Part shown: piece after piece, positions 19,776-37,450 of the stretch
How the letters are laid out: the number at the start of each line of letters is the position of its first letter
Position numbering within the stretch: position 1 is the first letter of the stretch
From: Protula sp. h YS-2021
Lineage: Eukaryota > Annelida > Polychaeta > Sabellida > Serpulidae
NCBI GenBank assembly: GCA_949752745.1
Contig: OX457028.1
Coordinates: 28,854,445-28,918,444 of the forward strand
Direction: 5' to 3'
Length of the DNA stretch: 64,000 nt
Notes under the pieces: generated by a model
The model's input: only the letters and a program-made list of their open reading frames with translations
Databases searched by the model: none
Told to the model about the DNA's origin: nothing
Translations under genes and position numbers: made by a program

Positions 19776-19855
19776 GCTATAAATCAATGATTTATAGTCC
19801 TCTTTTTTTTTTAGCATTTCCCACACTCTCATTCATACTAAGATTGTCTGATGAA

Positions 19856-19867
19856 GCGTTTCATTTC
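19856..19867 (-). promoter_or_regulatory. conserved downstream element of the histone-type 3' end (left gene)
   Basis: On the minus strand this reads GAAATGAAACGC and lies 12 nt after the stem-loop. The same element with one extra A lies at the same 12-nt spacing at 35465-35477. It is placed like a histone downstream element, the U7 snRNA binding site. Function inferred. Confidence 0.5.
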
Positions 19868-22347: not shown

Positions 22348-22353
22348 TGTCCA

Positions 22354-23022: not shown

Positions 23023-23086
23023 GACTGAGAGTCATTTGTTTGCCAACCGTCACAGTGTGCAGACGTGTTATATGGATATGTGAAAG

Positions 23087-23374: not shown

Positions 23375-23706
23375 TGACAGACATTACATTGAGACAATAT
23401 ATTGTGCAAAAGACATATTGTGAAGAAATGTTATTAGCTGTAAAAAAGTTTGCATGTTTAGTATGTCCTGCTTGTCAAAATGAAGAGTGTTCAGAACATA
23501 CCTGTCATTCTGCATGTGTCTATACATATTGGAATGAAGCTAAATATTACATTCATTTAGATAAAGTGTTAGATAATGCAAATCAACGCTGTGAAAAATA
23601 TGGTGTAGATGCTATCACATTTGATGAATTAAGTTGTTGGTTAATGTTCATTGAAGATCAATGGACTCCAATTATTCACACCATTGTATCAATACTTGAT
23701 TTGTAA
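23374..23706 (+). CDS. small Cys-containing protein of unknown function, 110 aa
   Basis: The ATG at 23374 overlaps the preceding stop. The N-terminal half has CLVCPACQNEECSEHTCHSAC, enough Cys/His for a zinc site. The rest is helical and acidic, ending FIEDQWTPIIHTIVSILDL. No family recognised. It is followed by an AT-rich spacer with AATAAA signals before the integrase gene. Confidence 0.6.
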   Translation: MTDITLRQYIVQKTYCEEMLLAVKKFACLVCPACQNEECSEHTCHSACVYTYWNEAKYYIHLDKVLDNANQRCEKYGVDAITFDELSCWLMFIEDQWTPIIHTIVSILDL

Positions 23707-23837
23707 GATATGTTGATTGAGCTTTTATAAAATTTAAGATATGTTAATAAAATTTAAGATGTGTTGATAAAATGCAAGATATGTTGATAAAATAAAATGC
23801 AAGATATGTTAACAAGTGTTGATCATTTAGTGTTAAC
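23707..23837 (+). repeat. AT-rich ~24-bp repeats between the early-type genes and the integrase
   Basis: AAGATATGTTGATAAAAT recurs about five times with small changes. The stretch includes AATAAA-type signals, so it may act both as a poly(A) region for the upstream genes and as a promoter for the integrase and virion gene run. Both roles are inference. Confidence 0.65.
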
Positions 23838-24941
23838 ATGTCGACGTGGAAAGACTACTTAACCAATATTTACTTTAAACCTGGTCAACCCGGGGCATTT
23901 GCTGGTCCTTACAAACTATATCACATATTAAAAAAACATGATCAACCAGTCACTCATTCACAAGTGAAGAAATGGTTACAGGATCAAGATGCCTTCAGTT
24001 TACTACAACCTGTAAAATACAGGTTTAAAAGGCAACGTGTCATTACACGTGGAATTGATGACATGTGGGACATTGATTTAGCTGACATGGGAAACATAGC
24101 TTCCTATAATGATGACACCCACTTTTTATTAGTTGTCATTGATGAGTTTTCCAAATATTTGTGGGTGCAGCCAATGCCTAATAAATCACATACCAGCGTC
24201 ATAGAAGCCTTTCAAAAGATTTTTCATGAAACACAACGAAGACCACGAACTCTAAGGTCAGATAAAGGAACTGAATTTAAAAACAGATGGGTAAAAGCAT
24301 TTTTGAAGAAGGAGGGAATACATGCCTATACGACAAAGAATGAAACCAAAGCCAACTTTGCTGAGAGAGTCATTCGTACTCTAAAGGGAATGATGTATCG
24401 ATATTTCCTTCATAATCAAACGTATCGATATATGGACATCCTTCCAGACTTAGTGTATAATTATAACCATAGACCTCATGGCTCCCTCCCTAATAAGTAT
24501 GCTCCTGCAGATATTCGTAAAGACATAGAATCGAAAGTGTGGAAGTATATGTATGTAGACAAATTGAAATTAAAACCAAAGAAGAAGAAAAAACCCTACA
24601 AATTTAAAATTGGTGATCAGGTTCGCATTTCTCACATGAAATATGTATTTCAACGGGATTATCATATAAAGTGGACGCAAGAAGTGTTCATTATCACACA
24701 TCGTTGTAAGAAGCAAGGAATACACTTGTATCGTGTGAAAGACTTTTTGGATGAAGATATTGACGGACATTTTTATGAAGAAGAACTGCAGAAAGTGACA
24801 AAAGATATTGAATCAGTCTACAGAATTGAAAAGGTCTTGAAAACACGAAAAAGACGAGGTGTTAAAGAATTATTTGTGAAGTGGTTAGGTTGGCCAAAGA
24901 AGTTTAACAGTTGGGTGAAAGAAACAGATATTCGAAAATGA
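23838..24941 (+). CDS. INT: retrovirus-like integrase with C-terminal chromodomain, 367 aa
   Basis: Catalyses insertion of the element into host DNA, consistent with the 6-bp target duplication. The rve core carries D80 (WDID), D142 (RSDKGTEF) and E176 (NFAERVIR), giving a D,D-E set with 33 residues between the last two. The N-terminus has the Polinton pattern FKPGQPGAFAGPYKLYHILK. Residues about 327-367 form a chromodomain (YRIEKVLKTRKRRG, FVKWLGWPKKFNSWV), known in Polinton integrases and thought to guide binding to modified histones. The gene overlaps the ATPase start by ATGA, like several others in this run. All key residues are present and the frame is intact, so activity is plausible. 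Confidence 0.96.
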   Translation: MSTWKDYLTNIYFKPGQPGAFAGPYKLYHILKKHDQPVTHSQVKKWLQDQDAFSLLQPVKYRFKRQRVITRGIDDMWDIDLADMGNIASYNDDTHFLLVVIDEFSKYLWVQPMPNKSHTSVIEAFQKIFHETQRRPRTLRSDKGTEFKNRWVKAFLKKEGIHAYTTKNETKANFAERVIRTLKGMMYRYFLHNQTYRYMDILPDLVYNYNHRPHGSLPNKYAPADIRKDIESKVWKYMYVDKLKLKPKKKKKPYKFKIGDQVRISHMKYVFQRDYHIKWTQEVFIITHRCKKQGIHLYRVKDFLDEDIDGHFYEEELQKVTKDIESVYRIEKVLKTRKRRGVKELFVKWLGWPKKFNSWVKETDIRK

Positions 24942-25597
24942 AGCATCCATTCACGTGTTTGGTCTCTGGACCTACAGGCAGTGGTAAAACTTCTCTAGTT
25001 AGAGAAATTCTAGAACAAAAGTTAATTAAACCCTCTCCAAAAACCATTTTATGGCTCTATGCAGCAGATCAGCCTTTGTATAAGGGAATGAAAGGTGTGG
25101 AATTTTACCAAGGCATTCCAGATAACATTGAAGAGCGTTTTAACCCGAAAAAACCAAACTTACTCATCATTGATGACTTAATGACCAAATGTCATAGTGA
25201 TGAACGCATGACACGTCTATTTAGTGTTGGCAGCAGTCATCAAAATCTAAGCATTATTTTTATTGTGCATAATTTGTTTCATCATGGTAGAGAAATGCGT
25301 AATATTAGTTTGAATACACATTACATCATTCTGTTTAAAAATCCTAGAGACAGTCAACAAATAAGTACATTAGCGCGACAAATGTATCCTGGAAAATCTC
25401 AATTTCTCATAGAAGCCTATCAAGATGCTACCAGCAAACCTCACGGCTATTTATTCATTGATTTGAAGCCGAAGACAAATGATCAACTACGTATTCGTAC
25501 AGGCATTTTACCAAAAGATACACATTACGTATATGTTGATAAGGTGGTGTATGAACAAGAACCAAGTCACTTAACCATTCGCAGCCAAGATGTCTAA
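24938..25597 (+). CDS. FtsK/HerA-type genome packaging ATPase, 219 aa
   Basis: Powers DNA packaging into capsids in Polintons, adintoviruses and related viruses. Walker A is GPTGSGKTS (residues 11-19) and Walker B is NLLIIDD (about 74-80). The conserved SSHQNLSIIFIVHNLF and FKNPRDSQQI segments are typical of the A32-like branch. The ATG at 24938 overlaps the integrase stop (ATGA); the frame opens further upstream only with a TTG. It is followed by an 8-nt overlap with the next gene. Confidence 0.93.
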   Translation: MKHPFTCLVSGPTGSGKTSLVREILEQKLIKPSPKTILWLYAADQPLYKGMKGVEFYQGIPDNIEERFNPKKPNLLIIDDLMTKCHSDERMTRLFSVGSSHQNLSIIFIVHNLFHHGREMRNISLNTHYIILFKNPRDSQQISTLARQMYPGKSQFLIEAYQDATSKPHGYLFIDLKPKTNDQLRIRTGILPKDTHYVYVDKVVYEQEPSHLTIRSQDV

Positions 25598-25916
25598 ACG
25601 TATTCAAGCGAATCAACCTTTCCTTCACTTGCTTGCACGCAGCGGGCCTAAACGACGTAAATCCTTACTACAACAAGCTACTAAGGAGGAATTAACTAGC
25701 TTGTTTGAAATTTGTTTGAATATATTGCGAGGACATTTACCCTTAAGCTCAAAAAGGTATAAGTTATTCAAGCGTGAACGTCATACCCTACGTACACTGG
25801 CAAATAAGAAGATATCACTTCGAAGAAAAAAGAAGTTGGTTAATCAGAAAGGAGGATTTATTGGAGCTATTGCTAAATTTGCATTACCCTTGTTAGCTCA
25901 GTTGCTGTTAAAATGA
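25590..25916 (+). CDS. small basic Polinton/adintovirus protein with hydrophobic C-terminus, 108 aa
   Basis: Strongly basic (SKRIQANQPF, GPKRRKSLL, FKRERHTLR, RRKKKLV) with a hydrophobic end (GGFIGAIAKFALPLLAQLLL). Proteins of this make-up sit between ATPase and capsid genes in adintovirus-like elements and are suspected virion core or membrane-active components; the specific role here is unproven. It overlaps the ATPase by 8 nt and the next gene by ATGA. Confidence 0.8.
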   Translation: MSKRIQANQPFLHLLARSGPKRRKSLLQQATKEELTSLFEICLNILRGHLPLSSKRYKLFKRERHTLRTLANKKISLRRKKKLVNQKGGFIGAIAKFALPLLAQLLLK

Positions 25917-26506
25917 AACATACTTTGAAAATGGTTCTCATTCCTGAATATGAATATAAAATGTTGTTAGAAAAGAAGGGAAAAGATGTTGAAATCAAAA
26001 CGAAAGTGAATAAACTTTTACGTGGGAAACGAACTCGTGAAAAAGCAATAGAAATGTCTCAAGTGCTTGGACGTCATTTACGAACAATTCAATCACAACA
26101 ACAACAACGACAAAAGTCTGTTACAACATCTAATGCAGAAAAATCAGAAAAGTCCCAACAGTTTCTAAACCATTTTCAACCCATTTATCATGTAAAACTA
26201 ACACAACTTCTGGCAGAACTTAAGAAATATGGTACGAGATGGACAGATAAAAATGAACTTGTTTTAAAAACAGGTACTGTCATTACAAATTCTAACATTA
26301 TTGATTTGTTGAAAGAAGCGTTGGTTGCTACAAAAAGAAAAGAACGACGAGAACCACCGCGTGGTTGGAAGCAGTTTATTGAGGAAATTGTAGACGCTAA
26401 TATTCCAAAAACTGTTTTTGGCAAAAAGACAACTCGTGAAGATATTACAAAAGAGCAACAACAACGTCAACAAAGATTGTTTCCAGAAGGATGGGAAACT
26501 TTTTAA
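25913..26506 (+). CDS. Polinton-associated structural-type protein, 197 aa
   Basis: Basic and helical with a Gln-rich linker (IQSQQQQRQKS). It contains KKYGTRWTDKNELVLKTG, NSNIIDLLKEALVATKRK and RGWKQFIEEI, a layout I associate with a conserved but uncharacterised adintovirus/Polinton protein. Its place in the virion gene run suggests a capsid-associated role. Its end overlaps the next gene by 16 nt in another frame. Confidence 0.75.
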   Translation: MKHTLKMVLIPEYEYKMLLEKKGKDVEIKTKVNKLLRGKRTREKAIEMSQVLGRHLRTIQSQQQQRQKSVTTSNAEKSEKSQQFLNHFQPIYHVKLTQLLAELKKYGTRWTDKNELVLKTGTVITNSNIIDLLKEALVATKRKERREPPRGWKQFIEEIVDANIPKTVFGKKTTREDITKEQQQRQQRLFPEGWETF

Positions 26507-26700
26507 CATGGATTAAAGAGCTATGGTGTTGTTGTTGTAAAGAAAATGGAAATAAAAATACTATTCCTGTAAAAATTAGGTGTGTTAGTGCTTGTTGTCA
26601 GGGAGAAGTAGTAGATACCAATTTAGATCATGTAGATAGCAATTTAGACAATAATGTAGACAGCAATGTAGAAAGTGAGGATGAAGAGTGTCAAACATGA
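26491..26700 (+). CDS. small putative lipid-anchored acidic protein, 69 aa
   Basis: Not recognised. The N-terminus MGNFLTW fits the N-myristoylation rule (Gly2, small or polar residue at 6: Thr6). Four consecutive Cys (13-16) directly behind are typical palmitoylation targets. The rest is acidic, with loosely repeated DSN/LDHVDSN units ending EDEECQT. A peripheral membrane protein is predicted. It starts inside the preceding gene and stops 54 nt before the penton ATG. Confidence 0.65.
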   Translation: MGNFLTWIKELWCCCCKENGNKNTIPVKIRCVSACCQGEVVDTNLDHVDSNLDNNVDSNVESEDEECQT

Positions 26701-26707
26701 AGTAATG

Positions 26708-26713
26708 TATATA
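26708..26713 (+). promoter_or_regulatory. TATA-like motif upstream of the penton gene
   Basis: TATATA lies 41 nt before the ATG at 26755, in the only real gap of the virion gene run. Spacing matches other promoters of the element. Confidence 0.45.
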
Positions 26714-26754
26714 CACATCTAGTCTATCTACATCACATAAACGATTTAGCTGTC

Positions 26755-27519
26755 ATGGAGTCAACAAGTTTTTACATTACTTTACCCAGCAATGCTAGTA
26801 TGAACTATTATCCCAACAACAAGACTTCGAATTATCAAATTCGTATGCCTCGAACCATCTATCTGAACGGAAAATATGAAGTGGCATTAGCTGAAATTCA
26901 ATATCCACATACATGGACAACCATGAGACATGGAATGGACTATTCTATTCAGTATCGACAACAACCACTGAATAATATTGTTCTTGACACAATCAATATT
27001 CCTTATGGTTACTACAGATCCATACAAGAAATATGTCATGCAGTTAATGAAGAAGCAACTAATTCTATGAAAGATGACCTTAAAGAAGGTATTCGGATAA
27101 AGTATGATAAAATTAGACGACGCGTTTTTCTATATCTAAATTATGGCTTTGAAGTGTCATTCTCCACTGGATTAGCTGAGATTTTAGGATTTATCCCAAA
27201 TCAATGGTATACTGAAACGTGTACAGCTGAATATAAAGCTGATGTGAAACAGGGGTTTTATACACTTTATGTGTACTGTAGTATTTGCGAGCCACAAGTT
27301 GTTGGTGATTATTATGTTCCTTTGCTACGTTCTGTTGCAATACAAGGACATGATGGAGACATTATCATGAAAACTTATGGAGAACCTCATTATGTTCCTG
27401 TAAACACATCCAAATTTGACGTGATAGAAATGAATATTAAGGATGACACAGACCATAATGTTCCATTTCAAACTGGGAAGGTGATCTGTAAACTTCATTT
27501 TCGACCAAAAGCATTATGA
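26755..27519 (+). CDS. penton-like minor capsid protein (single jelly roll), 254 aa
   Basis: Matches the Polinton/adintovirus minor capsid protein: FYITLPSNASMNYYPNNKTSNYQI near the N-terminus, the strand pattern around GKYEVALAEIQYPHTW and LYVYCSICEPQVVGDYYVPLLR, and the end VICKLHFRP. These proteins occupy capsid vertices. The gene overlaps the next one by ATGA. Length is in the usual range and the frame is intact. Confidence 0.9.
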   Translation: MESTSFYITLPSNASMNYYPNNKTSNYQIRMPRTIYLNGKYEVALAEIQYPHTWTTMRHGMDYSIQYRQQPLNNIVLDTINIPYGYYRSIQEICHAVNEEATNSMKDDLKEGIRIKYDKIRRRVFLYLNYGFEVSFSTGLAEILGFIPNQWYTETCTAEYKADVKQGFYTLYVYCSICEPQVVGDYYVPLLRSVAIQGHDGDIIMKTYGEPHYVPVNTSKFDVIEMNIKDDTDHNVPFQTGKVICKLHFRPKAL

Positions 27520-27872
27520 AAGCATACACACACAATCCATCTATATATCACAACCATTTTCTTCGTCAAGTGGGTGGAGAATTACCAGGATTTAAAGGAG
27601 CGCGAATACAATATGGAGATGGTATTGGTTCAATACTGGGATCATTGGCTCGAAAAGCTATTCCACTGCTTAAGACAGGGGCTAAAATCGTTGCACCACA
27701 TCTTAAAAGGGCTGCAAAAGATATCGCGAAAGATGTTACAGGTCGAGTAGCACAACGTATGTTTGGTGGTGGGTTACGAGGACAAAAGAGACCGAAACGA
27801 GCAAAACGTGTCAGAAGGCGAAAGGCAGCTAAACGGATAACATCCAAAAAACATAAGAAAGATATTTTTTAA
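27516..27872 (+). CDS. pX-like basic virion protein with amphipathic segment, 118 aa
   Basis: The N-terminal part includes GGELPGFKGARIQYGDGIG. It is followed by a long amphipathic helix (SILGSLARKAIPLLKTGAK, then IVAPHLKRAAKDIAKD) and a very basic tail (RPKRAKRVRRRKAAKR). This resembles the core/cement proteins processed by the adenovirus protease. MFGG followed by G fits the adenain rule (M/I/L)-x-G-G-x, so processing by this element's own protease is possible. The similarity is in composition and position, not in a searched alignment. Confidence 0.75.
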   Translation: MKAYTHNPSIYHNHFLRQVGGELPGFKGARIQYGDGIGSILGSLARKAIPLLKTGAKIVAPHLKRAAKDIAKDVTGRVAQRMFGGGLRGQKRPKRAKRVRRRKAAKRITSKKHKKDIF

Positions 27873-27874
27873 TC

Positions 27875-29248
27875 ATGTCTTTAATTCATAATCATTCTTG
27901 TGAATGTAGCCTTTCTCCATTAGAATGGTTTCACATACCACCAACGCAAACTGCTGTAGAAAAAAGTTATAATGTAGACTATCAACCAATGACTACCATT
28001 AGAGAGGGTGCTCCAATAGAATTCTACATTCCTGCGAGTACAGAAGAATATCTAGATTTAAAGAACAGTAAACTCCATATTGTATGTCGCATTGTCAAGG
28101 CTGATGGAACACTGTGTGGTGTAGGTGATAACGTGTCATGTATCAATGATTTGTTTAATGGGTTATGGTCTAATATTGAATTATTTCTAAATGATCGTTT
28201 GATATCACATAGTAACAATACCCATGGTTATACTAGCATCATATCTCATCTCATTCATGACTCGGAAGAAAGTCTCCATTCTGAGCGCTCTATGCGTCTC
28301 ATCTTTAAAGATACTGCCGGGTCAATGAATACTTATGAGGTGAAAAGACCTAATCATGAAAGATATGTATCAGGTTTTCATGTAAATATTGAAGGTGGTG
28401 ATATAGCTGAAACAGGAAATAATGGTTTACATAATCGCTATTTGTATACACGTCTAAGCCGTGAGTTTGCGCTTACAGGTGGTTTAAGGGTAGATTTGTT
28501 TGAGCAGGATCGTTATCTTCCCAATGGTGTTAGTATGAAATTACGTTTACATAGACAAAAAGATGGATATGTATTAATGGCTGCAAATAATGGTTTTAAA
28601 GTAGAAGTGAGAGAAGCGTTTTTAACCATTCGCAAAGTGAGGGTTAGTCCAGGTATTCAGTTGGGACATGCAGATGCATTGATGAAAAGTCCTGCTAAGT
28701 TTATTGTTAATAGAAAAGAATGTAAAGTTTTAGCTATTCCAACTGGATTTCAATCTTTTGTGAAAGATAGCATCTTTTTAGGCCAATTACCAAAACGTAT
28801 TGTCATTGGAATGGTTCATAATGAATCCTTTGCTGGAACAGTATTGAGAAATCCATACAATTTTGAACATTTTAATCTTAACTTTATGCAGCTTTACTCT
28901 GATGGTGAACCAGTCCTATCCAAACCTCTCAAGCTTGATATAAATCAAGGCAAATATCTTGATGCTTTTGAAACTCTTTACAAATCTTTTGATAGATTGG
29001 ATGGCGAGAAAAGTTCCATTATAAAACGGGAAGATTGGCCCAGAGGTTATTCGTTGTTTTCTTTTGACTTAACACCTGATTATGATGGTGCTGATCATTA
29101 TGCCCTTATCAAACATGGGAATTTGAGACTAGAAATGAATTTTGCTGGTGCCTTGCAAAATACAGTCAATGTTATAGTGTATGCTGAGTTTGATAACATT
29201 GTTGAAATAAGTGCAAATCGTAGCATTCAATTCGACTACCAGTCATGA
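27875..29248 (+). CDS. MCP: major capsid protein (double jelly roll), 457 aa
   Basis: Forms the pseudo-hexagonal capsid lattice. Conserved Polinton/adintovirus features are the N-terminal QTAVEKSYNVDYQPMTTI with GAPIEFYIPAS, the DLFNGLWSNIELFLNDRLIS segment, and, in the second jelly roll, NLNFMQLYSDGEPV, the FETLYKSFDRL helix and YSLFSFDLTPDYDG, ending in a hydrophobic strand (NVIVYAEFDNIVEI). Size and order (penton, pX-like, MCP, protease) fit. It overlaps the protease start by ATGA. Confidence 0.95.
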   Translation: MSLIHNHSCECSLSPLEWFHIPPTQTAVEKSYNVDYQPMTTIREGAPIEFYIPASTEEYLDLKNSKLHIVCRIVKADGTLCGVGDNVSCINDLFNGLWSNIELFLNDRLISHSNNTHGYTSIISHLIHDSEESLHSERSMRLIFKDTAGSMNTYEVKRPNHERYVSGFHVNIEGGDIAETGNNGLHNRYLYTRLSREFALTGGLRVDLFEQDRYLPNGVSMKLRLHRQKDGYVLMAANNGFKVEVREAFLTIRKVRVSPGIQLGHADALMKSPAKFIVNRKECKVLAIPTGFQSFVKDSIFLGQLPKRIVIGMVHNESFAGTVLRNPYNFEHFNLNFMQLYSDGEPVLSKPLKLDINQGKYLDAFETLYKSFDRLDGEKSSIIKREDWPRGYSLFSFDLTPDYDGADHYALIKHGNLRLEMNFAGALQNTVNVIVYAEFDNIVEISANRSIQFDYQS

Positions 29249-29682
29249 ACACGAAGCAGATAGAAGCCATCCTATCCCATGATGCCACGACAAAAGACTT
29301 GTTTCAAGGTGTGTTTGCCATGGACCAGTTACCATCTTTACAACGCGGTGCCTATGTCATCAACACAGACGATCATGATGAGCCAGGAGAGCATTGGGTG
29401 GCAGTATATTATGACGAAGACCCTGCAGAATATTTTGACTCTTATGGACTTTTACCTATAGACAGTCGTTTGAATAAGTTTTTAAAGTTTAATTTCATTT
29501 ATAATTCAGTTCCATTACAAACACCGATATCCTCTACATGTGGATTTTATTGTATATATTATATAATTCAAAGAGCTCGAGGACATAGTCCTTTTGAAAT
29601 CATTGATGTATTAAGAAGAAGTGATGGTGATTTTGTTGTAAAGGATTTTGTATATAGACATTATAAACCATTATTTTATTGA
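29245..29682 (+). CDS. PRO: adenain-like cysteine protease, 145 aa
   Basis: Processes capsid proteins during maturation in adenoviruses and relatives. The catalytic set is visible: H50 in EHWVAVYY, D65 in YFDSYG, Q92 seven residues before C99 in STCGFYCIYYI. The Q-to-C distance equals that in adenain. It is shorter than adenovirus adenain but typical for Polintons. It is the last gene of the rightward run and is followed by AATAAA at about 29748. Confidence 0.94.
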   Translation: MNTKQIEAILSHDATTKDLFQGVFAMDQLPSLQRGAYVINTDDHDEPGEHWVAVYYDEDPAEYFDSYGLLPIDSRLNKFLKFNFIYNSVPLQTPISSTCGFYCIYYIIQRARGHSPFEIIDVLRRSDGDFVVKDFVYRHYKPLFY

Positions 29683-29833
29683 TGTTGTATTAGTTAAGTT
29701 GCATTAGTTAAGTTGTTGGTAATTGTGAATTGTATTATGAATATTGTAAATAAACAAGACAGTTTTATACAACATTCTTTTTTTTATTGTGTTATACATT
29801 ATTTACATTTCACAATTATTTCACATTAAGCTT
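29683..29833. terminator. convergent poly(A) region
   Basis: GTAAATAAACAAG on the plus strand serves the rightward run, and AATAAAAGC on the minus strand (TTTATT near 29833) serves the leftward run. The AT-rich spacer separates the two convergent transcription units. Confidence 0.65.
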
Positions 29834-30214
29834 TTATTTTACAAATACATTCAATACATCAATAAACACATGCCATTCATACCAATCTAAATTAATATAT
29901 GTATCATAGACATTACATCCACGTTTGTAAATGTTATGAAAACTAGCATAACACTGTCCATTACCAAACTTTATTATTTTAACATCTTTGTGTTCAGACA
30001 GTTTCAGTTCATATCCATGATCATTCATGTCAATGTTCATCACCATAACACACATGGGATGTGTCAGTTCAATGGACTTGGTGCCTCGCATGAGTTGCAC
30101 TCCTTCCTCTTTGAATTCAAGCGTCAGGTTCTTTCCAATCCAATGCTTGTAACAGAGCGTGCCATTCCACTGTGTTGAGGGTGATGTAGTCGTAGCATTT
30201 TGTAAGCTCGTCAT
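29834..30214 (-). CDS. PC4-like small protein, paralogue D, 126 aa
   Basis: The ATG at 30214 is preferred; an earlier TTG at 30232 would extend it. The first 98 nt overlap the end of the upstream gene in another frame. The N-half (LTLEFKEEGVQLMRGTKSIEL) and the C-half (DVKIIKFGNGQCYASFHNIY, then YINLDWYEWHVFIDVLNVF) repeat the two-module pattern of paralogues B and C. The last helix with EWHVF corresponds to the W-containing helix of PC4/Sub1. Most diverged member; nucleic-acid binding is inferred. Confidence 0.5.
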   Translation of the reverse strand: MTSLQNATTTSPSTQWNGTLCYKHWIGKNLTLEFKEEGVQLMRGTKSIELTHPMCVMVMNIDMNDHGYELKLSEHKDVKIIKFGNGQCYASFHNIYKRGCNVYDTYINLDWYEWHVFIDVLNVFVK

Positions 30215-30458
30215 ATTGGCGAAATCGTACAAACACGTCTAAATAGTTCTCAGTCACACGCACTTCTAAATCCTCTGAGAGTTTCAGGAGAAAGCCAGGT
30301 ATCCTCAGCTTCTCTAGATGGTCTTTCAACACAGATTGTTCGTCAGTTGATAGAATGATATACTTTCCAAAATGTTTTAGCACGATGTCATCATATACGT
30401 TTCTCAGATATGAGAATCCATGCGTAATGGGTTCATATTCCGATAAAAAGTCTTCCAT
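30117..30458 (-). CDS. PC4-like small protein, paralogue C, 113 aa
   Basis: ATG at 30458; the frame opens nine nt earlier with a TTG. Acidic N-terminus (MEDFLSEYEP), then DDIVLKHFGKYIILSTDEQS and LEVRVTENYLDVFVRFRQYD, then YITLNTVEWHALLQALDW. The final strand plus EWHALL helix parallels TIPEWKMLKKQVKEVD in paralogue A. It overlaps the next gene downstream by 98 nt. Confidence 0.55.
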   Translation of the reverse strand: MEDFLSEYEPITHGFSYLRNVYDDIVLKHFGKYIILSTDEQSVLKDHLEKLRIPGFLLKLSEDLEVRVTENYLDVFVRFRQYDELTKCYDYITLNTVEWHALLQALDWKEPDA

Positions 30459-30512
30459 CTCGTTCAACAGTCAGATGAACTATGAGCTGTCTCCTTGTCT
30501 GCAAAGACGTTT

Positions 30513-30884
30513 TTATGCTCGCAAGATGGTGAAGAGTGGATGTTGTATCACTTCTAGGAATCGTAAGACTGCGCGCCAGTTCTTGATATCAAAGATGATC
30601 AAATCTGTATATGGTGTATCTGGCACAACTCCCTTATAATCCTCTGGATAATCCTGTAAAAGATTTCTACAGATTTCTACACGTATGTTAGAATCATATT
30701 CAGCCACCGTCACTTCCACTTTATTTTCAAGTCTACGTTTAAACCCATGTTCAAGTGGTATGTTTTTAAAGTCTTTCCACACTTCAGGTTTAAACCGATG
30801 ATAACTTCTCTGAGAATCTAGTATCACTTCATTCCTATCATTTACAGTAAGGTAAGCACCACCGTTCAGCATGAGTGCATTCAT
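30513..30884 (-). CDS. PC4-like small protein, paralogue B, 123 aa
   Basis: Two modules: GAYLTVNDRNEVILDSQRSY with PEVWKDFKNI (N-half) and KVEVTVAEYDSNIRVEICRN, then LIIFDIKNWRAVLRFLEVI (C-half). The strand-strand-strand-helix order with a Trp at the helix start is that of PC4. It begins 12 nt after the stop of paralogue A, so the two are probably on one transcript. Confidence 0.55.
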   Translation of the reverse strand: MNALMLNGGAYLTVNDRNEVILDSQRSYHRFKPEVWKDFKNIPLEHGFKRRLENKVEVTVAEYDSNIRVEICRNLLQDYPEDYKGVVPDTPYTDLIIFDIKNWRAVLRFLEVIQHPLFTILRA

Positions 30885-30896
30885 GTTTTTACCTTG

Positions 30897-31253
30897 TTAT
30901 GAGCCACCTTCTTGTCTGCGAAGCCTTTTATCCACTTCTTTCACCTGCTTCTTCAACATTTTCCATTCAGGTATTGTCAGCAAGATACCCTTTTTCGTTG
31001 GACGGTTTTTTCCAGTCCCCTCATCTCTCAGGTACTTGCGAATGTTTACCACTCCTTCATTGCTTTGTTTCATAATCTTGATATACTTTCCATTTCCTAG
31101 AGAAAGCATTCCATCCCACGACTGTGGTGTTGGTGCTGTCTCCACTTTCAATTTCTTGATGGTAGTGGTAGGATTTTTCACTTTTAAGTCTTTAACTGCA
31201 TCTGCAAGAGTATCCATATCAGTTGTAGATCTCTTACGACTTTCACGTTCCAT
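30897..31253 (-). CDS. PC4/Sub1-like single-strand DNA-binding or coactivator protein, paralogue A, 118 aa
   Basis: Clearest member of the family. After a Ser/Arg/Lys-rich leader (MERESRKRSTT...LKVKNPTTTIKKLKVE) comes a complete PC4 domain (about 50-112): LGNGKYIKIMKQSNEGVVNI, RKYLRDEGTGKNRPTKKGIL, LTIPEWKMLKKQVKEVDKRL. In PC4 the beta strands bind melted or single-stranded DNA and the KKG-(I)-L-T-x-x-W turn is diagnostic. A role in replication or transcription of the element is likely. It has its own TATA box, which overlaps the polymerase stop codon. Confidence 0.8.
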   Translation of the reverse strand: MERESRKRSTTDMDTLADAVKDLKVKNPTTTIKKLKVETAPTPQSWDGMLSLGNGKYIKIMKQSNEGVVNIRKYLRDEGTGKNRPTKKGILLTIPEWKMLKKQVKEVDKRLRRQEGGS

Positions 31254-31306
31254 GTTAACGCTTCAATGTTCACACCTCAAATAACTCTTCCGTTGGAGGA
31301 CCTCCC

Positions 31307-31315
31307 CCTTTTATA
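31307..31315 (-). promoter_or_regulatory. TATA box of the PC4-like cluster, overlapping the polymerase stop codon
   Basis: On the minus strand the polymerase gene ends GCTGTGGTATAAAAGG: the stop TAA (31311-31313) lies inside TATAAAAGG. The ATG of paralogue A follows 53 nt later. Confidence 0.8.
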
Positions 31316-34300
31316 CCACAGCCTTGTAATGTCCATGCGCTAAAGTGGAATAGCCATCATTCAGCACATATCGCTTGTCGTCATATGGGGAGAGGGCTAC
31401 TTTCCTCAACTTCTCCGAGAAAAGCTGGTGACTATGACTTCGGATAATGTGTCCTGTAGCCATCGTTTGAGTTTTCTTGAACAAACTGTCTCTATACTGC
31501 ACATGTTTAATGCGTCTTTGACACGCGCGAGTGATGCCTTTGGCCGTACGTTTTTCTTTCCCACCACACAATAAACTGTACATTTTCGGTCTGAGTCCAA
31601 CAAACTCTTCAATGGGGACGCCGGCCGTCTCATCCTTCATTTTCCCAAGCACTTTTTTGTTCACGTTGGAATGTAGGAAATGATCCGGCGGATAGTCACT
31701 TGTGTCGAACAGGTCAGCATCCTGCTGCATATCCTTGTAGATATCTTCCGTTTCTATGTCGTAACATAGACTGTCGGTGTCGCTGAACAATAACTTGGCA
31801 TTGGGATACTTGACCATGATGTAGTTGTAATGAAAGTTGAACATAAGCACTTTGCTGAGGTCGAGAATGGTGAAACCAACTTGAATGGGTTTATCCAGAA
31901 GCAAATCCACTTTGCGTAAATGTACCGCGGTCAAATCTTCGTTGAAAATTTTGAATTTGTGGAAAGAAGGTTTGGCTACAAGTTTCTTGAACCGCTTTTC
32001 CTTGTGAACAAGTTCAACATTGATTCGCTTTCTCACATTTTCCATGGTTTTGCCAAACACCGAGTTGTTCATCAGTTTGAAGAAGTCTTTCTCAAATGGG
32101 TTCTTGGCCAATTTTCTCTTTTCCGTGTTCAAGGCAATGTATTTTGCCAACCATTTGCTCTGTTCAAACATGATGGCGCGATGTACTTTAGTGACTTTCA
32201 ACCCCAGTGAGACGTACTGTTGCAAATTCCTGTAATGAAGTACATATTTCTTCTTGTCAGACAAGTTAGGAATGAGCTTTTCACTGGATTTCTCTTTCAT
32301 GTTTAGATCTTTCCGCAGCTTCTGACTGTACTCTGACAATTCTTCAACTTTGACACATTTCCGTTCTGGAGCCACTGGGTAGTGATTATGATGATCATGG
32401 ATTGAATTTGGATATTCTAAATCCACTTCCAAAATGAATCCAATGTCATCATCTTCATCCACATCCATGAAGTCGAGGGATTCTGGCTCGCTCACCCACA
32501 TAAATCCTCTTTGTGGCATGCTTTGTGACATTGCCCAGCCATACAAGTTGTTTGCGTCGAGGTACATCAGGTAGTTGTTTGGTATCTCAGAATTGTATTC
32601 TGCTACGTAGGGATTATTCGCTTTCGCATACTTGTGTGTGATCACAGATATTCCTCCACGTATGCCTTGCTCAACCATTTGGTACATGTCAATGTCATTG
32701 ATCAATTCCAACTTCACCTTTGTCGCTTTCAACATTGCATCCCACGACAGTCCTGGTGCTGTATAGTAATGAGCAGGATCCAATTCATACGTGTTGAGGC
32801 ATACTTGACGAAAGTTTTCAAACACGTCAGCTAGTAATAACACATCTGATTTCAGGTACAGGTCGTGGTATTCACCAAATGTTGTACAGTTGAATGTATC
32901 CCACACCTTCTGTGCATGCGCATAATCCTCATCGCTAATGTCCTCTTCGCTAAGCTGACTATAAAACTTATCCTTTGATGGTAGCTGTGTTTCAGCAAAC
33001 TTGGATGGTTCGTCCACGTAATCATAGGGGTACACACCCTTTCTCAGCAGCAAATCTTGTTGATCACTATCGTGAATGTGAGAGGTCATGTTGTAGAAGT
33101 TATCTTTCCCTTCTGCTGCAAGGTTGGATACCAACTTCTGTAGAGAGGTACTCATGAACTGAAAGCTGTCTGTAAATTTCAGATTGCTCAGGGTGAATGC
33201 AATATATTTCTCAATGGTGTTGGGAATGACTGTAATCGTTTCACCTTTGAATTTCCCAATTTCCTCCATGATAAGGTGACTGTCATAGCCTCGCAAATTG
33301 TGGAAAAATACGGGAATGATAAAAGAATCTTGATCCCCTTGCTGATCTTTTCTAAGACGGAATTGTAAGTTGCATTCATTGTGTGCTGCTCCACGATATT
33401 TGCCATTGATGTGGTCATGATCTCTCACACGATCTGCTCCTAGAGGTTCATGACAAATGTAGCAATCAGTGGCGTTCTTGAAATTCTCTTTGTCTTCACG
33501 AGTCATCACCATTTCCTTTGGTTGCTCTAAACCACGTACAATACGATCGCGTTCATTCACCATATGGTCTAAAAAGACCTTTACGGCATTGTCTCCTCGA
33601 TACACAACTGGTGCACGTGTGTTGTACTGGCTCACAACCACATAGGCAAAGCTGTTTGGACGATGATGTTGATACTTGTCTCCTTCTTCATGCTTTTGCG
33701 TGAAACATTCAAAGTCAGCATAAATCACAAACGGTGCTCGCTGTTGTTTAGCCACATTCTTGAACTTGATGAATGGTTCCTTGGGAAATGATAAACGTTG
33801 TGCTCCATTCTTGTCACACACTTCACGATGCTTATCTAAAAGCTCTTGTCGCATAAACCCGTGAAGACAGTTGAAGCAATAAAAATGTGCACACTTATGC
33901 TTTGATCGATAAGCCATAAGTCTGCTAAAACTCTTGATGAGGCAGTAATGCCTTGTCTTGTCATTGCTAATCAGAAGTAAGTTGATTTCTCTGACACTGA
34001 CGTTTCGACTAAGTTGTATTGGAACAACTACATCTTGTTCGTATCCAAACACGTTGATGGCTACATCGTTCTCCTTTTCAAACTTTGGAATGTCAGTAAT
34101 TGGTGTCGGAAATGTCATACCCTCTACCTTTAATTCCTTCTCAAATGGTTTGTAGTAATTCACGCGATTTGGGTTGTCGTCATGAGGGTGAAGGTAAGCC
34201 AATACTGACCATAAGAAACACTTGTTATCATCATTCTTAATGTTTATCACACCCTTTGTTTTCTTCACTTTCTTCGGCAGTGGAATAAAACTACTCGCTT

Positions 34301-35366
34301 CTAGAGGCATCAACGTAGCTGTATGTACTTCAATGTATAGTATGTTATCCAATACCCAGCCAGAGCCTTGTCGCTCATGTTCGTCAAAATTAGTAAATAA
34401 TTCTTTATAGGCTTCTGGCAAGTCCTGTTCAATATCTGCTGGATTGTATGCTGTATATGTTGGACTGCTGATAAATGCATTATCCACTTGTTCTACCATA
34501 ACACCTTCAGCATTTGCTGTCAGTTTCTTGAAACGTGCATGTACGACAATGTACCATTTCATTCCATGGTTTAAGGTCTCCAACAAATGTGCCTTGATAC
34601 GGTTCTCTTGCTGTCGCATTTCAAGCAGTAAATCTGATCCATCCTCGGGCTCAAACCGTTTTTCCTGCGCGTTTTCACCAAGACTAACCCTTCTACCTCT
34701 CCCTACTTGTCCTGTCTTTTGTTTCTTTGAAACATGTTCTTGAGACACATTTTCCATCTCAGCTGGTTTACATGCATGTGCCTCAAAAGTATCCATAGAT
34801 GGAAACTCTTCATTGCATTCCGCACACTGGACTGGACCGTATGGCCAAATGTCATCTTCTTCCATCTTTTCTCTCTTTGCTCCTTTCCCTTCATGTTTCG
34901 CTAAAGTTTTCATCTCAGCTTTACATGTATGTGCTTCAAAAGTATCCATAGATGGAAATTCTACATTACATTCCGCACACTGAACTGGACCGTATGGCCA
35001 AATGTCATCTTCTTCCATCTTTTGTCTCTTTGCTCCTTTCCCTTCATGTTTCACTAAAGTTTTCATCTCAGCTTTGCATGTATGTGCTTCAAAAGTATCC
35101 ATAGATGGAAATTCTACATTACATTCCGCACACTGAACTGGACCGTATGGCCAAATGTCATCTTCTTCCATCTTTTGTCTCTTTGCTCCTTTCCCTTCAT
35201 GTTTCACTAAAGTTTTCATCTCAGCTTTGCATGTATGTGCTTCAAAAGTATCCATAGATGGAAATTCTACATTACATTCCGCACACTGAACTGGACCGTA
35301 TGGCCAAATGTCATCTTCTTCCATCTTTTGTCTCTTTGCTCCTTTCCCATACTCTTCACGTTCCAT
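31311..35366 (-). CDS. POLB: DNA polymerase B (protein-primed type) with four N-terminal zinc-finger repeats, 1351 aa
   Basis: Replicates the element, probably by protein priming at the TIRs. Residues 8-160 are three near-identical 51-aa repeats, and a fourth, more diverged repeat follows. Each has a CAEC-x12-H-x-C zinc motif behind a basic GAKRQKMEEDD leader. Next come INIKNDDNKCFLWSVLAYLH (about 372) and another finger (CFNCLHGF...HREVC). The exonuclease has DFECF (about 548), GYDSHL (about 690) and YLKSDVLLLADVF (about 836). An endonuclease VII-like zinc knuckle (CYICHEPL...DHDHINGKYRGAAHNECN, about 632) sits between Exo I and II. Polymerase motifs are YLDANNLYG (about 933), MNNSVFGK (about 1099) and SDTDSL (about 1194). 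All catalytic Asp residues are present. The ATG at 35366 lies ~65 nt after a TATAAAAGG. Confidence 0.96.
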   Translation of the reverse strand: MEREEYGKGAKRQKMEEDDIWPYGPVQCAECNVEFPSMDTFEAHTCKAEMKTLVKHEGKGAKRQKMEEDDIWPYGPVQCAECNVEFPSMDTFEAHTCKAEMKTLVKHEGKGAKRQKMEEDDIWPYGPVQCAECNVEFPSMDTFEAHTCKAEMKTLAKHEGKGAKREKMEEDDIWPYGPVQCAECNEEFPSMDTFEAHACKPAEMENVSQEHVSKKQKTGQVGRGRRVSLGENAQEKRFEPEDGSDLLLEMRQQENRIKAHLLETLNHGMKWYIVVHARFKKLTANAEGVMVEQVDNAFISSPTYTAYNPADIEQDLPEAYKELFTNFDEHERQGSGWVLDNILYIEVHTATLMPLEASSFIPLPKKVKKTKGVINIKNDDNKCFLWSVLAYLHPHDDNPNRVNYYKPFEKELKVEGMTFPTPITDIPKFEKENDVAINVFGYEQDVVVPIQLSRNVSVREINLLLISNDKTRHYCLIKSFSRLMAYRSKHKCAHFYCFNCLHGFMRQELLDKHREVCDKNGAQRLSFPKEPFIKFKNVAKQQRAPFVIYADFECFTQKHEEGDKYQHHRPNSFAYVVVSQYNTRAPVVYRGDNAVKVFLDHMVNERDRIVRGLEQPKEMVMTREDKENFKNATDCYICHEPLGADRVRDHDHINGKYRGAAHNECNLQFRLRKDQQGDQDSFIIPVFFHNLRGYDSHLIMEEIGKFKGETITVIPNTIEKYIAFTLSNLKFTDSFQFMSTSLQKLVSNLAAEGKDNFYNMTSHIHDSDQQDLLLRKGVYPYDYVDEPSKFAETQLPSKDKFYSQLSEEDISDEDYAHAQKVWDTFNCTTFGEYHDLYLKSDVLLLADVFENFRQVCLNTYELDPAHYYTAPGLSWDAMLKATKVKLELINDIDMYQMVEQGIRGGISVITHKYAKANNPYVAEYNSEIPNNYLMYLDANNLYGWAMSQSMPQRGFMWVSEPESLDFMDVDEDDDIGFILEVDLEYPNSIHDHHNHYPVAPERKCVKVEELSEYSQKLRKDLNMKEKSSEKLIPNLSDKKKYVLHYRNLQQYVSLGLKVTKVHRAIMFEQSKWLAKYIALNTEKRKLAKNPFEKDFFKLMNNSVFGKTMENVRKRINVELVHKEKRFKKLVAKPSFHKFKIFNEDLTAVHLRKVDLLLDKPIQVGFTILDLSKVLMFNFHYNYIMVKYPNAKLLFSDTDSLCYDIETEDIYKDMQQDADLFDTSDYPPDHFLHSNVNKKVLGKMKDETAGVPIEEFVGLRPKMYSLLCGGKEKRTAKGITRACQRRIKHVQYRDSLFKKTQTMATGHIIRSHSHQLFSEKLRKVALSPYDDKRYVLNDGYSTLAHGHYKAVV
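34740..35350 (-). repeat. four 153-bp repeats encoding zinc-finger units in the polymerase N-terminus
   Basis: 35198-35350 and 35045-35197 appear identical by eye. 34892-35044 differs at a few bases, and 34740-34891 is more diverged and ends the array. Lengths are multiples of three, so copy-number change keeps the frame. Confidence 0.92.
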
Positions 35367-35430
35367 CTTAGCTAGTTGTTGTTACGTCAACTGCTGAAAC
35401 TAAAATGCTGAAATGTAATCTCAAACATCC

Positions 35431-35440
35431 CCCTTTTATA
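35431..35440 (-). promoter_or_regulatory. TATA box of the DNA polymerase gene
   Basis: The minus strand reads TATAAAAGGG, 65 nt before the ATG. Confidence 0.75.
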
Positions 35441-35464
35441 CACATTCATACATAGACAGAATTT

Positions 35465-35477
35465 GCGTTTTCATTTC
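35465..35477 (-). promoter_or_regulatory. conserved downstream element of the histone-type 3' end (Cys-rich gene)
   Basis: The minus strand reads GAAATGAAAACGC, 12 nt after the stem-loop at 35490-35505, matching the left-arm copy in sequence and spacing. Confidence 0.55.
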
Positions 35478-35489
35478 ATAACAGAGGAT

Positions 35490-35505
35490 GGCCCTTAAAA
35501 GGGCC
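35490..35505 (-). terminator. histone-type 3' stem-loop after the Cys-rich gene
   Basis: The minus strand reads GGCCCTTTTAAGGGCC, a full match to the replication-dependent histone consensus GGYYYUUHUHARRRCC (6-bp stem, UUUA loop), 24 nt after the stop codon. ACTAACATCT precedes it, as before the stem-loop of the RING gene. Confidence 0.7.
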
Positions 35506-35529
35506 GAAAGATGTTAGTAATTTGACGCT

Positions 35530-35883
35530 TCACCAGCAAGTCGGATTGCCACAGTCGCACTGGTATCTGTAAAACTGTTCCATGGAGAACGGTCGTCGCG
35601 AGCACTTGAACGGATGACGGTTATAGTAGCCAAAGTTTTTTAGTGTCGCTCCACACCACCAGCAGTCCGTGCATGGCTGCGGTCCTGGCAATCTCGCAGT
35701 AAACTTGTACCAGAGCAGTCCACCGCAAGTTTTGCAGCAGTAATGTCGTGGTGCATTGTGGTGCACCGGGCAGTTGTGTGGTTGACCTGGGTACTCCAAC
35801 CATACCCAACACTTATAACACTCAGTCGTTAGCGTCACTGCCTTGCCGTTTCGCATCACTGTGATTTTACGATTTGTTGACAT
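35530..35883 (-). CDS. Cys-rich zinc-binding accessory protein, 117 aa
   Basis: Not recognised. Contains CYKCWVWLEYPGQPHNCPVHH, CCKTCGGLLWYKF, CTDCWWCGATL, a CSRRPF segment and CDCGNPTCW, enough Cys and His for three or more zinc ribbons. It is rich in Trp and basic residues, which suggests nucleic-acid or protein binding. It has its own TATA box (35921-35930) and is divergent from the RING gene. A histone-type stem-loop lies 24 nt behind the stop. Confidence 0.75.
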   Translation of the reverse strand: MSTNRKITVMRNGKAVTLTTECYKCWVWLEYPGQPHNCPVHHNAPRHYCCKTCGGLLWYKFTARLPGPQPCTDCWWCGATLKNFGYYNRHPFKCSRRPFSMEQFYRYQCDCGNPTCW

Positions 35884-35920
35884 CTTGCTGCTTGTGTTGG
35901 ATAATGAAGCTGTAACCCAC

Positions 35921-35930
35921 CTTTATATAC
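35921..35930 (-). promoter_or_regulatory. TATA box of the Cys-rich gene
   Basis: The minus strand reads GTATATAAAG, 38 nt before the ATG at 35883. Confidence 0.75.
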
Positions 35931-35962
35931 TACTAGCGAACATCTTCGCATTATATGCTGAT

Positions 35963-36091
35963 GGGGGGGGGTCCCGAGTTTAGCTCGGCTGGGGGGGGGG
36001 GGTCCTGAGTTTTGCTCGACTAGGGGGGGGGTCCCGAGTTTTGCTCCACTAGGGGGGGGGGTCCGAGTTTTGCTCCACTAGGGGGGGGGGT
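35963..36091 (+). repeat. G-tract iterons between the divergent right-hand promoters
   Basis: Four units of about 36-40 bp share GGGGGGGG, GTCC(C)GAGTTTTGCTC and (C)ACTA; G runs are 9-12 bases. It lies exactly between the two divergent TATA boxes. Strong G-quadruplex potential on the plus strand. Confidence 0.9.
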
Positions 36092-36111
36092 CCGATCCTG
36101 ACTTCAGGTGG

Positions 36112-36120
36112 TATATAAGG
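36112..36120 (+). promoter_or_regulatory. TATA box of the RING gene
   Basis: TATATAAGG lies 42 nt before the ATG at 36162. Confidence 0.8.
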
Positions 36121-36161
36121 CATGCTCATTTCAGTTTGGGCTCACACTCGCTTCCGTCAAC

Positions 36162-36713
36162 ATGGAGTGCTTCTTCGGGTTACATGATGCTCGCACCATT
36201 GCTGAAGTTAGAGAACTTCACCTGCCTGTCACACAGCCACAGACACCGCCAGAAAGAGTCTACTTCTTCCAGCTGCTGCCAGACCCGGTTCATGGATCCG
36301 TCCTGTGCGTGCCCGTCCTGTACAACCGTCAAGTCACGATTGGAAAGAGGCTCAGAGATATAGAGGCTGGTCACTATGAAGAAGCGTTCTTTAGAACGAT
36401 GATGCTAGGGGAGTCAATACCTTCGCGGATGGAAGAAGAAGAGTACCCGGCCTGGGGGAGATTCTTCCTCCAGCAAGACTTGGATATTTGCCCAGGATGT
36501 GGGTGTATGATCTCCCCAGACCGGGTGCTGTCTGAGTGCAACCATCAAATGTGTCTGGTCTGCGCGGCGCAGTGGACTGAACTGCTGGCGCTAAATGACC
36601 GCTACTCTGTGAGGTGCTTTACCTGCGGCATGCGAGGGGACCACTTTTTGTTCAACGGGCAACAGCTCACACATTGCAGTAGGCCAGTGCAGGACATTGT
36701 GACATTCTTTTAA
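36162..36713 (+). CDS. RING-finger protein (possible E3 ubiquitin ligase), 183 aa
   Basis: The ATG at 36162 follows the TATA box; upstream in-frame codons open only through a GTG in the promoter. The C-terminal third has a C3HC4 RING: C110-x2-C113, C126-x-H128-x2-C131-x2-C134, C152-x2-C155. RING domains recruit E2 enzymes for ubiquitin transfer, so modification of host or viral proteins is possible. The N-terminal 100 residues are not recognised and no BIR domain is visible, so it is not an IAP. It is the rightmost gene of the element, with a histone-type stem-loop 40 nt behind the stop. Confidence 0.75.
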   Translation: MECFFGLHDARTIAEVRELHLPVTQPQTPPERVYFFQLLPDPVHGSVLCVPVLYNRQVTIGKRLRDIEAGHYEEAFFRTMMLGESIPSRMEEEEYPAWGRFFLQQDLDICPGCGCMISPDRVLSECNHQMCLVCAAQWTELLALNDRYSVRCFTCGMRGDHFLFNGQQLTHCSRPVQDIVTFF

Positions 36714-36753
36714 ACCGGGACCGGCAGCAGCAGGAGAAAAACTAACATCTCCT

Positions 36754-36769
36754 GGCTCTTTTAAGAGCC
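36754..36769 (+). terminator. histone-type 3' stem-loop after the RING gene
   Basis: GGCTCTTTTAAGAGCC matches the histone consensus GGYYYUUHUHARRRCC at every position and is followed by CACCA, like the usual ACCCA cleavage context. GAAATAAGCGC follows 13 nt later (36783-36793), at the place of a histone downstream element. ACTAACATCT precedes it. Confidence 0.75.
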
Positions 36770-36860
36770 CACCACTGATACTGAAATAAGCGCTAATCGT
36801 GTCATGGTGTTAGTATGTATGTGTATGCATGAGAGTGTGGGAAATGCTTAAAAAAAAAAA

Positions 36861-37322
36861 TGGTCACCCGTTTGAATGGTTGTTTGAATGGCCGCCCGTT
36901 TGAATGGTTGTTTGAATGGCCGCCCACTCTCCATATTACGTCATTATGACGTTCATATGACGTTCATATGACGTTCATATGAAGTTCATATGACGTTCAT
37001 ATGACGTTCATATCACCTCCATATCACCTCTATATCACCTCCATATCACCTCCATAACACGTCTAGATCACGTCATAATGACGTCACTGTTTTAGAAACC
37101 CCATGGGGCTTCTAAAACACCACGTGACGTCATTATGACATCCATATGGTAACCATATGGTAACCATATGATAACCATATGATAACCATATGACGTCAAT
37201 ATGACGTTAATATGACGTCAATATGACGTCACTGTTTTAGAACCCCCGTGGGGGTTCTAAAACACCATGTGACGTCACTATGACGTCACTTCCTGTTTTA
37301 GAACCCCCGTTTTCACACTACT
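36861..37322 (-). repeat. right terminal inverted repeat
   Basis: Reverse complement of the left TIR; 36910-37322 aligns base for base with 16291-16703 except one position. The inner part (36861-36909) consists of the same CATTCAAAC modules in a different order. Confidence 0.95.
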
Positions 37323-37328
37323 ATTTGT
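37323..37328. repeat. right 6-bp target-site duplication (ATTTGT)
   Basis: Exact copy of 16285-16290 directly after the terminal CT of the element. Confidence 0.95.
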
Positions 37329-37450
37329 GACCAGTGCGCACATTTATTTAACTTGCGTCGATGCGCGGTTCGATTTCGAACCAGTGCGCATGTTTACCAA
37401 ACTTGCGTCGATGTGCGGTCCGCATTTCGGAACGATTCGTATGGTTATTC
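37323..37450. repeat. ~60-bp tandem repeats (right part)
   Basis: About two units (GACCAGTGCGCACATTTATT, AACTTGCGTCGATGCGCGGTT) continue the array interrupted by the Polinton at 16290. Confidence 0.85.

Follow-up and report, generated by a model that had tools for sequence, protein, structure and literature searches.

Histone-type 3'-end signals behind small genes of a Polinton-like element in the genome of the annelid Protula sp.

Extent and gene content of the element

The stretch of DNA analysed here (the window) comprises 64,000 nucleotides of contig OX457028.1 from the annelid Protula sp. h YS-2021. It holds a virus-like mobile element (~19803-36858) which, judged from its sequence, is taken as a Polinton and which carries three histone-like stem-loop sites, referred to as S1, S2 and S3 (Table 1). 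Several features by which Polintons are recognised are present, i.e., an rve integrase, a packaging ATPase, an adenovirus-type protease whose match is barely over the cut-off, and terminal inverted repeats (TIRs). The TIRs of Polintons are usually longer than the 36 nt of this element, and no capsid family was found among the Pfam matches of its listed ORFs. The largest gene, encoding 1351 aa, is presumed to be PolB-like from B-family polymerase motifs recognised in its translation, and its name rests on these motifs because searches of Pfam, PHROGs and PDB sequences, including searches with the 699-aa C-terminal part, named no polymerase. The main reading presented below does not depend on this name, and the odds assigned to it are unchanged by the missing polymerase match. 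An ORF on a contig of the IMG/VR collection (L140) is 40% identical to the PolB-like protein.

The genes are arranged as two long convergent blocks, one on the plus strand (21283-29682) and one on the minus strand running from the PolB-like gene to ORF c1 (35366-29834), together with three small outer genes, of which zfL and zfM lie on the minus strand and the RING-like gene on the plus strand. zfL points to the left end of the element and the RING-like gene to its right end, and zfM is located immediately before the PolB-like gene. A TATATAA is found 50 nt upstream of the RING-like ATG, and for zfL the 150 nt preceding the start codon contain no TATA match. Neither zfM nor zfL had a match in Pfam, comparison of the RING protein with PDB and PHROGs sequences gave no informative match, and its AlphaFold2 model, computed without an alignment, had a pLDDT of 31 and was unusable.

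Several repeats are associated with the element. The N-terminal part of zfL is, by eye, seemingly duplicated just upstream of its ATG (20885-21060), and a 153-bp tandem repeat of 3.8 copies with 97% matches (34767-35348) encodes the repeated N-terminal zinc finger of the PolB-like protein. In addition, similar palindrome-rich tandem repeats, with units apparently in opposite orientation, flank the element at 16014-16808 and 36859-37430, and the Polinton could lie inside a larger inverted repeat or itself include one. Elsewhere in the window, an integrase with DUF5641 and H2C2 domains (1113-2261) is present, which we take to be BEL/Pao-like.

Table 1 Features of the element and of its 3'-end signals (window positions).
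Feature	Position	Strand	Remarks
Left TIR, 36 nt	19803..19838	+	94% complementary to right TIR
S1 downstream element GAAATGAAACGC	19856..19867	-	13 nt past stem-loop
S1 diverged stem-loop, 7-bp stem, UUUU loop	19881..19898	-	63 nt past zfL stop
zfL, 307 aa	19962..20885	-	ORF; two C2H2/C2HC-like finger motifs, read by eye
Integrase, rve and chromo domains	23838..24941	+	Pfam, over cut-off
Packaging-type ATPase	24938..25597	+	Pfam Adeno_IVa2 and Pox_A32, over cut-off
Adenovirus-type cysteine protease	29245..29682	+	Peptidase_C5, 21.4 bits, just over the cut-off of 21.3
AATAAA, plus block	29749..29754	+	67 nt past the block's last gene; ordinary poly(A) signal
AATAAA, minus block	29783..29788	-	46 nt past the block's last ORF
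PolB-like gene, 1351 aa	31311..35366	-	N-terminal repeated zinc finger; B-family polymerase motifs by eye
TATAAAA of PolB-like gene	35434..35440	-	74 nt before its ATG, ~25 nt past S2 downstream element
S2 downstream element GAAATGAAAACGC	35465..35477	-	12 nt past stem-loop
S2 stem-loop GGCCCT-TTTA-AGGGCC	35490..35505	-	24 nt past zfM stop; stem identical to host H1 stem
zfM, small Cys-rich gene, 117 aa	35530..35883	-	ORF; TATA box 46 nt upstream of ATG
RING-like gene, 183 aa, single open frame	36162..36713	+	Weak Pfam zf-C3HC4/IBR, below cut-off; resembles RING ORFs of the second family (L164-L191)
S3 stem-loop GGCTCT-TTTA-AGAGCC	36754..36769	+	40 nt past RING stop
S3 downstream element GAAATAAGCGC	36783..36793	+	13 nt past stem-loop; first 9 nt identical to host H1 element of L192
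Right TIR	36823..36858	-	Counterpart of left TIR

Stem-loops and downstream elements of the three sites

A first-pass annotation of the window had described a histone-type stem-loop, GGCTCTTTTAAGAGCC, at 36754-36769 of the plus strand, directly followed by CACCA and, 13 nt after the stem-loop, by the element GAAATAAGCGC at 36783-36793, and had placed these signals behind the RING gene. All of this was borne out for S3, which lies 40 nt past the RING stop and whose 33-nt stretch folds as expected (z -3.2). That annotation did not contain S2 (35505-35465, minus strand), though it scores higher than S3. Between zfM and the PolB-like gene lie 163 nt, which contain the S2 signals as well as the TATA box of the latter gene. 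Both S2 and S3 display a six-base-pair stem, a GG...CC base and a four-base, pyrimidine-rich loop, unlike S1, whose stem has seven pairs, or nine when the outer pairs are counted (19879-19900). The 5' flanks of these two sites are CATCTCCT or CATCTTTC and not the A-rich TAAA type of the H1 genes, and their 3' flanks are CACCA or ATCCT and not of the ACCCA type. In all three cases, the stem-loop is on the coding strand a short way past the stop codon of zfM, the RING-like gene or zfL.

Comparison of the three sites indicates that they are related. The stems of S2 and S3 differ by one compensated pair (C-G versus T-A), the flanks having diverged more, and the two sites have ACTAACATCT upstream in common. 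Their 3' ends align with a score of 70, which was reached in 0 of 1000 shuffles, while S1 aligns with S2 with a score of 41 (0/1000 shuffles as good) and with S3 with a score of 37 (4/1000). The paired stem, the U-rich loop, the spacing of 12-13 nt and a GAAATRA core are kept across S1-S3, and on these alignments the three 3' ends appear to be one cassette in three places, of which the diverged S1 may not bind the stem-loop binding protein SLBP. The relatedness of S1 and S3 and their mirror places just inside the TIRs could also be read as hairpins acting at the DNA level within the TIRs, as a replication, integrase or packaging signal that merely resembles a histone end. Yet S2, the best match, is located ~1.35 kb inside the element, the loop and the downstream element have transcript polarity in 3/3 sites, 24-63 nt past a stop, and the same pair of elements occurs in host H1 genes and in a second element family (see below), so that a DNA-level role is considered quite improbable.

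How often such sites are expected by chance was estimated in several ways. The consensus GGYTYTTHTHARRRCC has one match in the 64 kb, compared with a mean of 0.02 in dinucleotide shuffles, 2 of 100 of which contained one. Scanning the whole window with the Rfam family Histone3 at E<=5 returned only two matches, S2 (35510-35466, minus strand; 27.3 bits, E 0.0015) and S3 (36749-36794, plus strand; 23.2 bits, E 0.053); a scan of the window at gathering score returned nothing, both sites being below the Histone3 gathering score of 34. A stricter rule, demanding six Watson-Crick pairs and a UUUN loop, matches exactly S2 and S3 in the window, where base composition leads to an expectation of 0.0003 for a 17-kb element and 0.001 for the window, and has 0 matches in 200 kb of background from the same genome (20 small unplaced contigs, each sampled over its first 10 kb). 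With a looser rule, which admits S1, three places in the window match, all of which are kept when GAAAT[GA]A is required within 30 nt; this combination gave 1 in 2000 element shuffles, and 0.03 per shuffle without the downstream element, numbers that are optimistic because the rules were written after the sites had been seen. With a similar loose rule, one place was found in the 200-kb background, with no downstream element behind it. Finally, when the S1-S3 stretches were shuffled, an AAATRA core appeared at offsets 9-15 in 0.6-2% of cases.

It could be argued that these are chance or generic hairpins with no link to histones, as the stem-loop is short, S2 and S3 remain below the gathering score, and weak Histone3 matches (E<=10, none over the cut-off) were found in 14/14 prokaryotic control genomes. 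Given the low chance counts, downstream elements that match those of host H1 and the recurrence of the signals after a homologous gene in the second family, this is hardly credible.

The small genes also differ from the long blocks in their poly(A) signals. Both blocks end in an AATAAA (Table 1), whereas neither AATAAA nor ATTAAA is found within 250 nt of the RING, zfM and zfL stops. By itself this is a weak argument, because 8 of the 16 other listed ORFs, mostly inside the blocks, also have no such signal within 250 nt.

Host histone genes and a second element family

A Histone3 search of the 863-Mb host genome gave at least 75 scored matches, at least 63 of them over the cut-off, a count that is a lower bound because scoring covered 75 of 158,589 first-look candidates, with S2 and S3 themselves not among them. 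Five of the matches, all at C4:76.23-76.50 Mb (L162, L163, L192-L194), follow linker histone H1 genes, and in 5/5 genes read a GGCCCTTCTNAGGGCC stem-loop is followed by ACCCAATRTTCC and then, 12 nt past the stem-loop, by RAAATAAGC; in L162, the stem-loop is 36 nt past the stop. The first-pass annotation had proposed comparing the site with the host's histone 3' ends, and in this comparison, which covers H1 genes from one cluster, the stem-loop and the downstream element recur in every gene. The AAATRA core lies 13-14 nt past the stem-loop in S1-S3 and 13 nt past it in 5/5 H1 genes, and GAAATAAGC is common exactly to the L192 H1 gene and S3, where it stands at 13 nt. The stem of S2 is that of the H1 genes, and further on S2 shows GCAAATTCTGTC versus GCAATTCTGTC in L162.

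Using a covariance model built from the five host H1 ends alone, S2 was the best match in the 64 kb (21.2 bits, E 0.021) and S3 the second (17.2 bits, E 0.19), the only further match at E<=10 in the window being the antisense of S2. In the 200-kb background, the model had eight matches at E<=10, the best of which, a 21-nt AT-rich stretch, scored 18.2 bits, so that S3 would not stand out alone on this model, and the weight of S3 comes from its context and its exact downstream element. S1 was found neither by Rfam nor by the H1 model. Core-histone domains (PF00125) had 60 matches in the host genome, at C7:31.94-32.46 Mb and elsewhere. At C9:38609847-38610117, a Histone3 match of 32.6 bits, just below the cut-off, immediately follows a match to a core-histone domain, and this locus is probably a replication-dependent core histone gene.

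The best Rfam match to the U7 snRNA in the host genome is located at C1:32544054-32544108 (minus strand; 29.9 bits, E 0.057, below the cut-off) and has a 3' hairpin and a AAATCTGTCTAG stretch that looks Sm-like. When the 5' end of this weak, below-cut-off candidate was paired with eight downstream elements, H1 included, 0.10-0.94 of shuffles were as good, and since the pairing was not convincing even for host H1, the candidate may not be a real U7; weak U7 matches at E<=10 were also found in 12/14 prokaryotic control genomes. Adjoining the left end of the element, an 83-bp tandem repeat (19505-19772) contains two occurrences of GCGTTTCATTTC, a sequence exactly complementary to the downstream element of S1. 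An origin of this repeat from U7 was considered and rejected, there being no Rfam U7 match in it, and the complementarity is treated as a coincidence or as unexplained.

Relatives were also searched for in IMG/VR. Scans with the integrase, the PolB-like protein and the ATPase yielded no confirmed relative. A pattern of stem-loop plus downstream element matched 19 loci, with six pairs in 9 and not in the other 10, and a looser pattern matched at least 120 loci, with six pairs in 10 of the 120 matches listed; both results were read as chance. A polymerase motif led to one distant relative, L140, which had no Histone3 match at E<=0.001, and the motif is thus not common to all relatives.

Within the host genome, at least 54 places among the 75 scored Histone3 matches have one and the same score (37.4 bits), and these are spread over 11 contigs (C1-C11). 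The 28 of these 54 places that were read (L164-L191, on C1-C4) all display GGCTCTTATAAGAGCC-ATCCACTCTTAC-AAATAAGC behind a RING homologue or its remnant. A search for the motif in related elements, as suggested in the first-pass annotation, has therefore turned up both stem-loop and downstream element in 28/28 loci. In 27/28, this stem-loop follows the end of an ORF (at least 50 aa) at a distance of 22-30 nt; the RING ORF is longer than 150 aa (174-192 aa) in 25/28, with 10 distinct proteins among them, and is broken or shortened in L175, L179 and L180. The RING protein of the window matched 27/28 loci by tblastn at E<=1e-4, and L179 in a second, smaller run, with an identity of mostly 35-36% over 77 aa that is weaker in L175 and L179. 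Its direct alignment with the L165 protein scored 125, compared with at most 49 in 300 shuffles. The second family is further tied to this kind of element by L175, where the PolB-like protein is matched by stretches at 52% and 75% identity and ORF c1 over a short length.

The second family has further sites of this kind. Approximately 1.2 kb further, an ORF of 105-106 aa ends 15-16 nt before GGCCCTTTTTAGGGCC in 26/28 loci, followed by GAAATGAGCGC in 25 and by AAAATAAGCGC in one. On the H1 model, this site scores 18.0 bits in most copies, a score within the range of 15.5-19.3 bits of the 24 short AT-rich stretches that were dropped from the 106 matches in second-family loci. Another site scores 34.6 bits in 27/28 and 30.8 bits in L175; its first stem pair is A-T, it lies ~21 nt past the end of an ORF in L165, and its element CAAAATAAGCAA is identical to the host H1 sequence in L162. 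Read in this way, the sequences suggest that histone-type stem-loops stand at the ends of three or more small genes of this high-copy family. One second-family copy (L199, C1:35764000-35765200) also has a second RING-like paralogue, 35% identical over 77 aa to the RING protein of the window, and the H1 model had no match at this gene.

The second family bears on whether the stem-loops mark the end of the mRNA at all. They might serve mRNA stability or translation by binding SLBP or a protein like it, the mRNAs being cut and polyadenylated downstream. The same may apply to bdelloid rotifers, in which H2A histone variants carry both a stem-loop and a putative poly(A) signal (PMC2642717). In the second family, the 105-aa gene has an AATAAA ~100 nt past the stem-loop start in 26/26, and its polyadenylation is therefore possible. 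However, neither AATAAA nor ATTAAA occurs within 250 nt at the three genes of the window or at the RING stem-loop of the second family (28/28), and the downstream element, whose role in histone genes is U7-dependent cleavage, has been retained. This alternative is regarded as unlikely.

Proposed use of histone pre-mRNA processing and comparison with known systems

Histone mRNAs are described as the only metazoan protein-coding class in which a stem-loop replaces the poly(A) tail (PMC6303110). In histone pre-mRNA processing, the cut is made by CPSF73 between the stem-loop, which is held by SLBP, and the downstream element, to which the 5' end of U7 base-pairs (PMC7026596). The bdelloid stem-loops are located 40-80 bp past the stop (PMC2642717), comparable to the 24-63 nt in the window.

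With cis signals behind two genes and a diverged third, host SLBP and U7 probably form these 3' ends. It is very likely that the small outer genes of the window element end in host-type histone 3' processing signals, through which host SLBP and U7 would give rise to non-polyadenylated mRNAs. Histone-type ends are very probable for the RING-like gene and zfM and possible for zfL. The observed signals, their gene context, the match to host H1 and the conservation in the second family underlie this reading. RNA polymerase II would transcribe each small gene from its own promoter, host SLBP would bind the stem-loop, the U7 snRNP would bind the downstream element 12-13 nt past it, and CPSF73 would cut between the two. 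The resulting mRNA would end just past the stem-loop with no poly(A) tail, be translated through SLBP and be destroyed when S phase ends. Regarding the suggestion in the first-pass annotation of histone-like processing by SLBP and U7, the H1 ends and the 28/28 second-family loci lend it support; the cleavage, the missing tail, the SLBP-dependent translation, the S-phase timing with decay at its end, and the regulatory role of the small genes are what we infer, the fate of the mRNA by extension from the histone system.

As the long convergent blocks keep ordinary AATAAA ends, the element would operate two 3'-end systems, a replication-linked one for the small, presumably regulatory genes and a constitutive one for the structural and replicative genes. 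What the element would gain could plausibly be compactness, since nothing beyond its end would be needed, and timing, with the RING and zinc-binding proteins made while host replication factors are present. The downstream element should mirror what the host U7 recognises, and elements that switch hosts would therefore have to match the U7 of the new host.

In a wider sense, there is a reasonable case, less firm than that for the window element, that a lineage of animal virus-like elements, represented in this genome by two or more divergent families, co-opted the processing of histone pre-mRNAs for a set of small genes, one of which encodes a conserved RING protein. Their transcripts would be the first protein-coding mRNAs outside the histones to have a histone stem-loop and no tail, and would couple the regulators of the element to host S phase. 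If true, histone mRNA would no longer be the sole stem-loop-ended metazoan class, part of the transcripts of these elements would escape RNA-seq of poly(A)-selected RNA, and the timing of Polintons with host replication would become testable.

Compared with Polintons/Mavericks (adintovirus-like elements), the window element is alike in its TIRs, packaging ATPase, adenovirus-type protease and rve integrase with chromodomain and, by motifs recognised by eye, in a candidate PolB-like gene, but differs in its histone-type 3' ends, for which no report in Polintons was found. In the open PMC library, no description of histone-type 3' ends or SLBP use in Polintons, transposons or viral mRNAs was found among titles and the openings of abstracts; searches on transposons and on viral mRNA led to a paper on Drosophila SLBP and to an artificial system, respectively. 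SARS-CoV-2 is reportedly a virus that uses host SLBP, according to a frameshifting study (PMC12166091). The exploitation of SLBP would be alike, whereas that case concerns frameshifting in a coding region and not the formation of an mRNA 3' end. The closest comparison is with animal histone 3' ends formed by SLBP, the U7 snRNP and CPSF73. The window sites differ from these in lying on non-histone genes of a virus-like element, in having no A-rich 5' flank, in CACCA or ATCCT in place of ACCCA, and in the longer stem of S1. They resemble them in the six-pair stem with a four-base loop and a CC-rich 3' flank, in a downstream element 12-13 nt further on whose core is that of host H1, and in their position near the stop of small single-frame genes with no AATAAA nearby.
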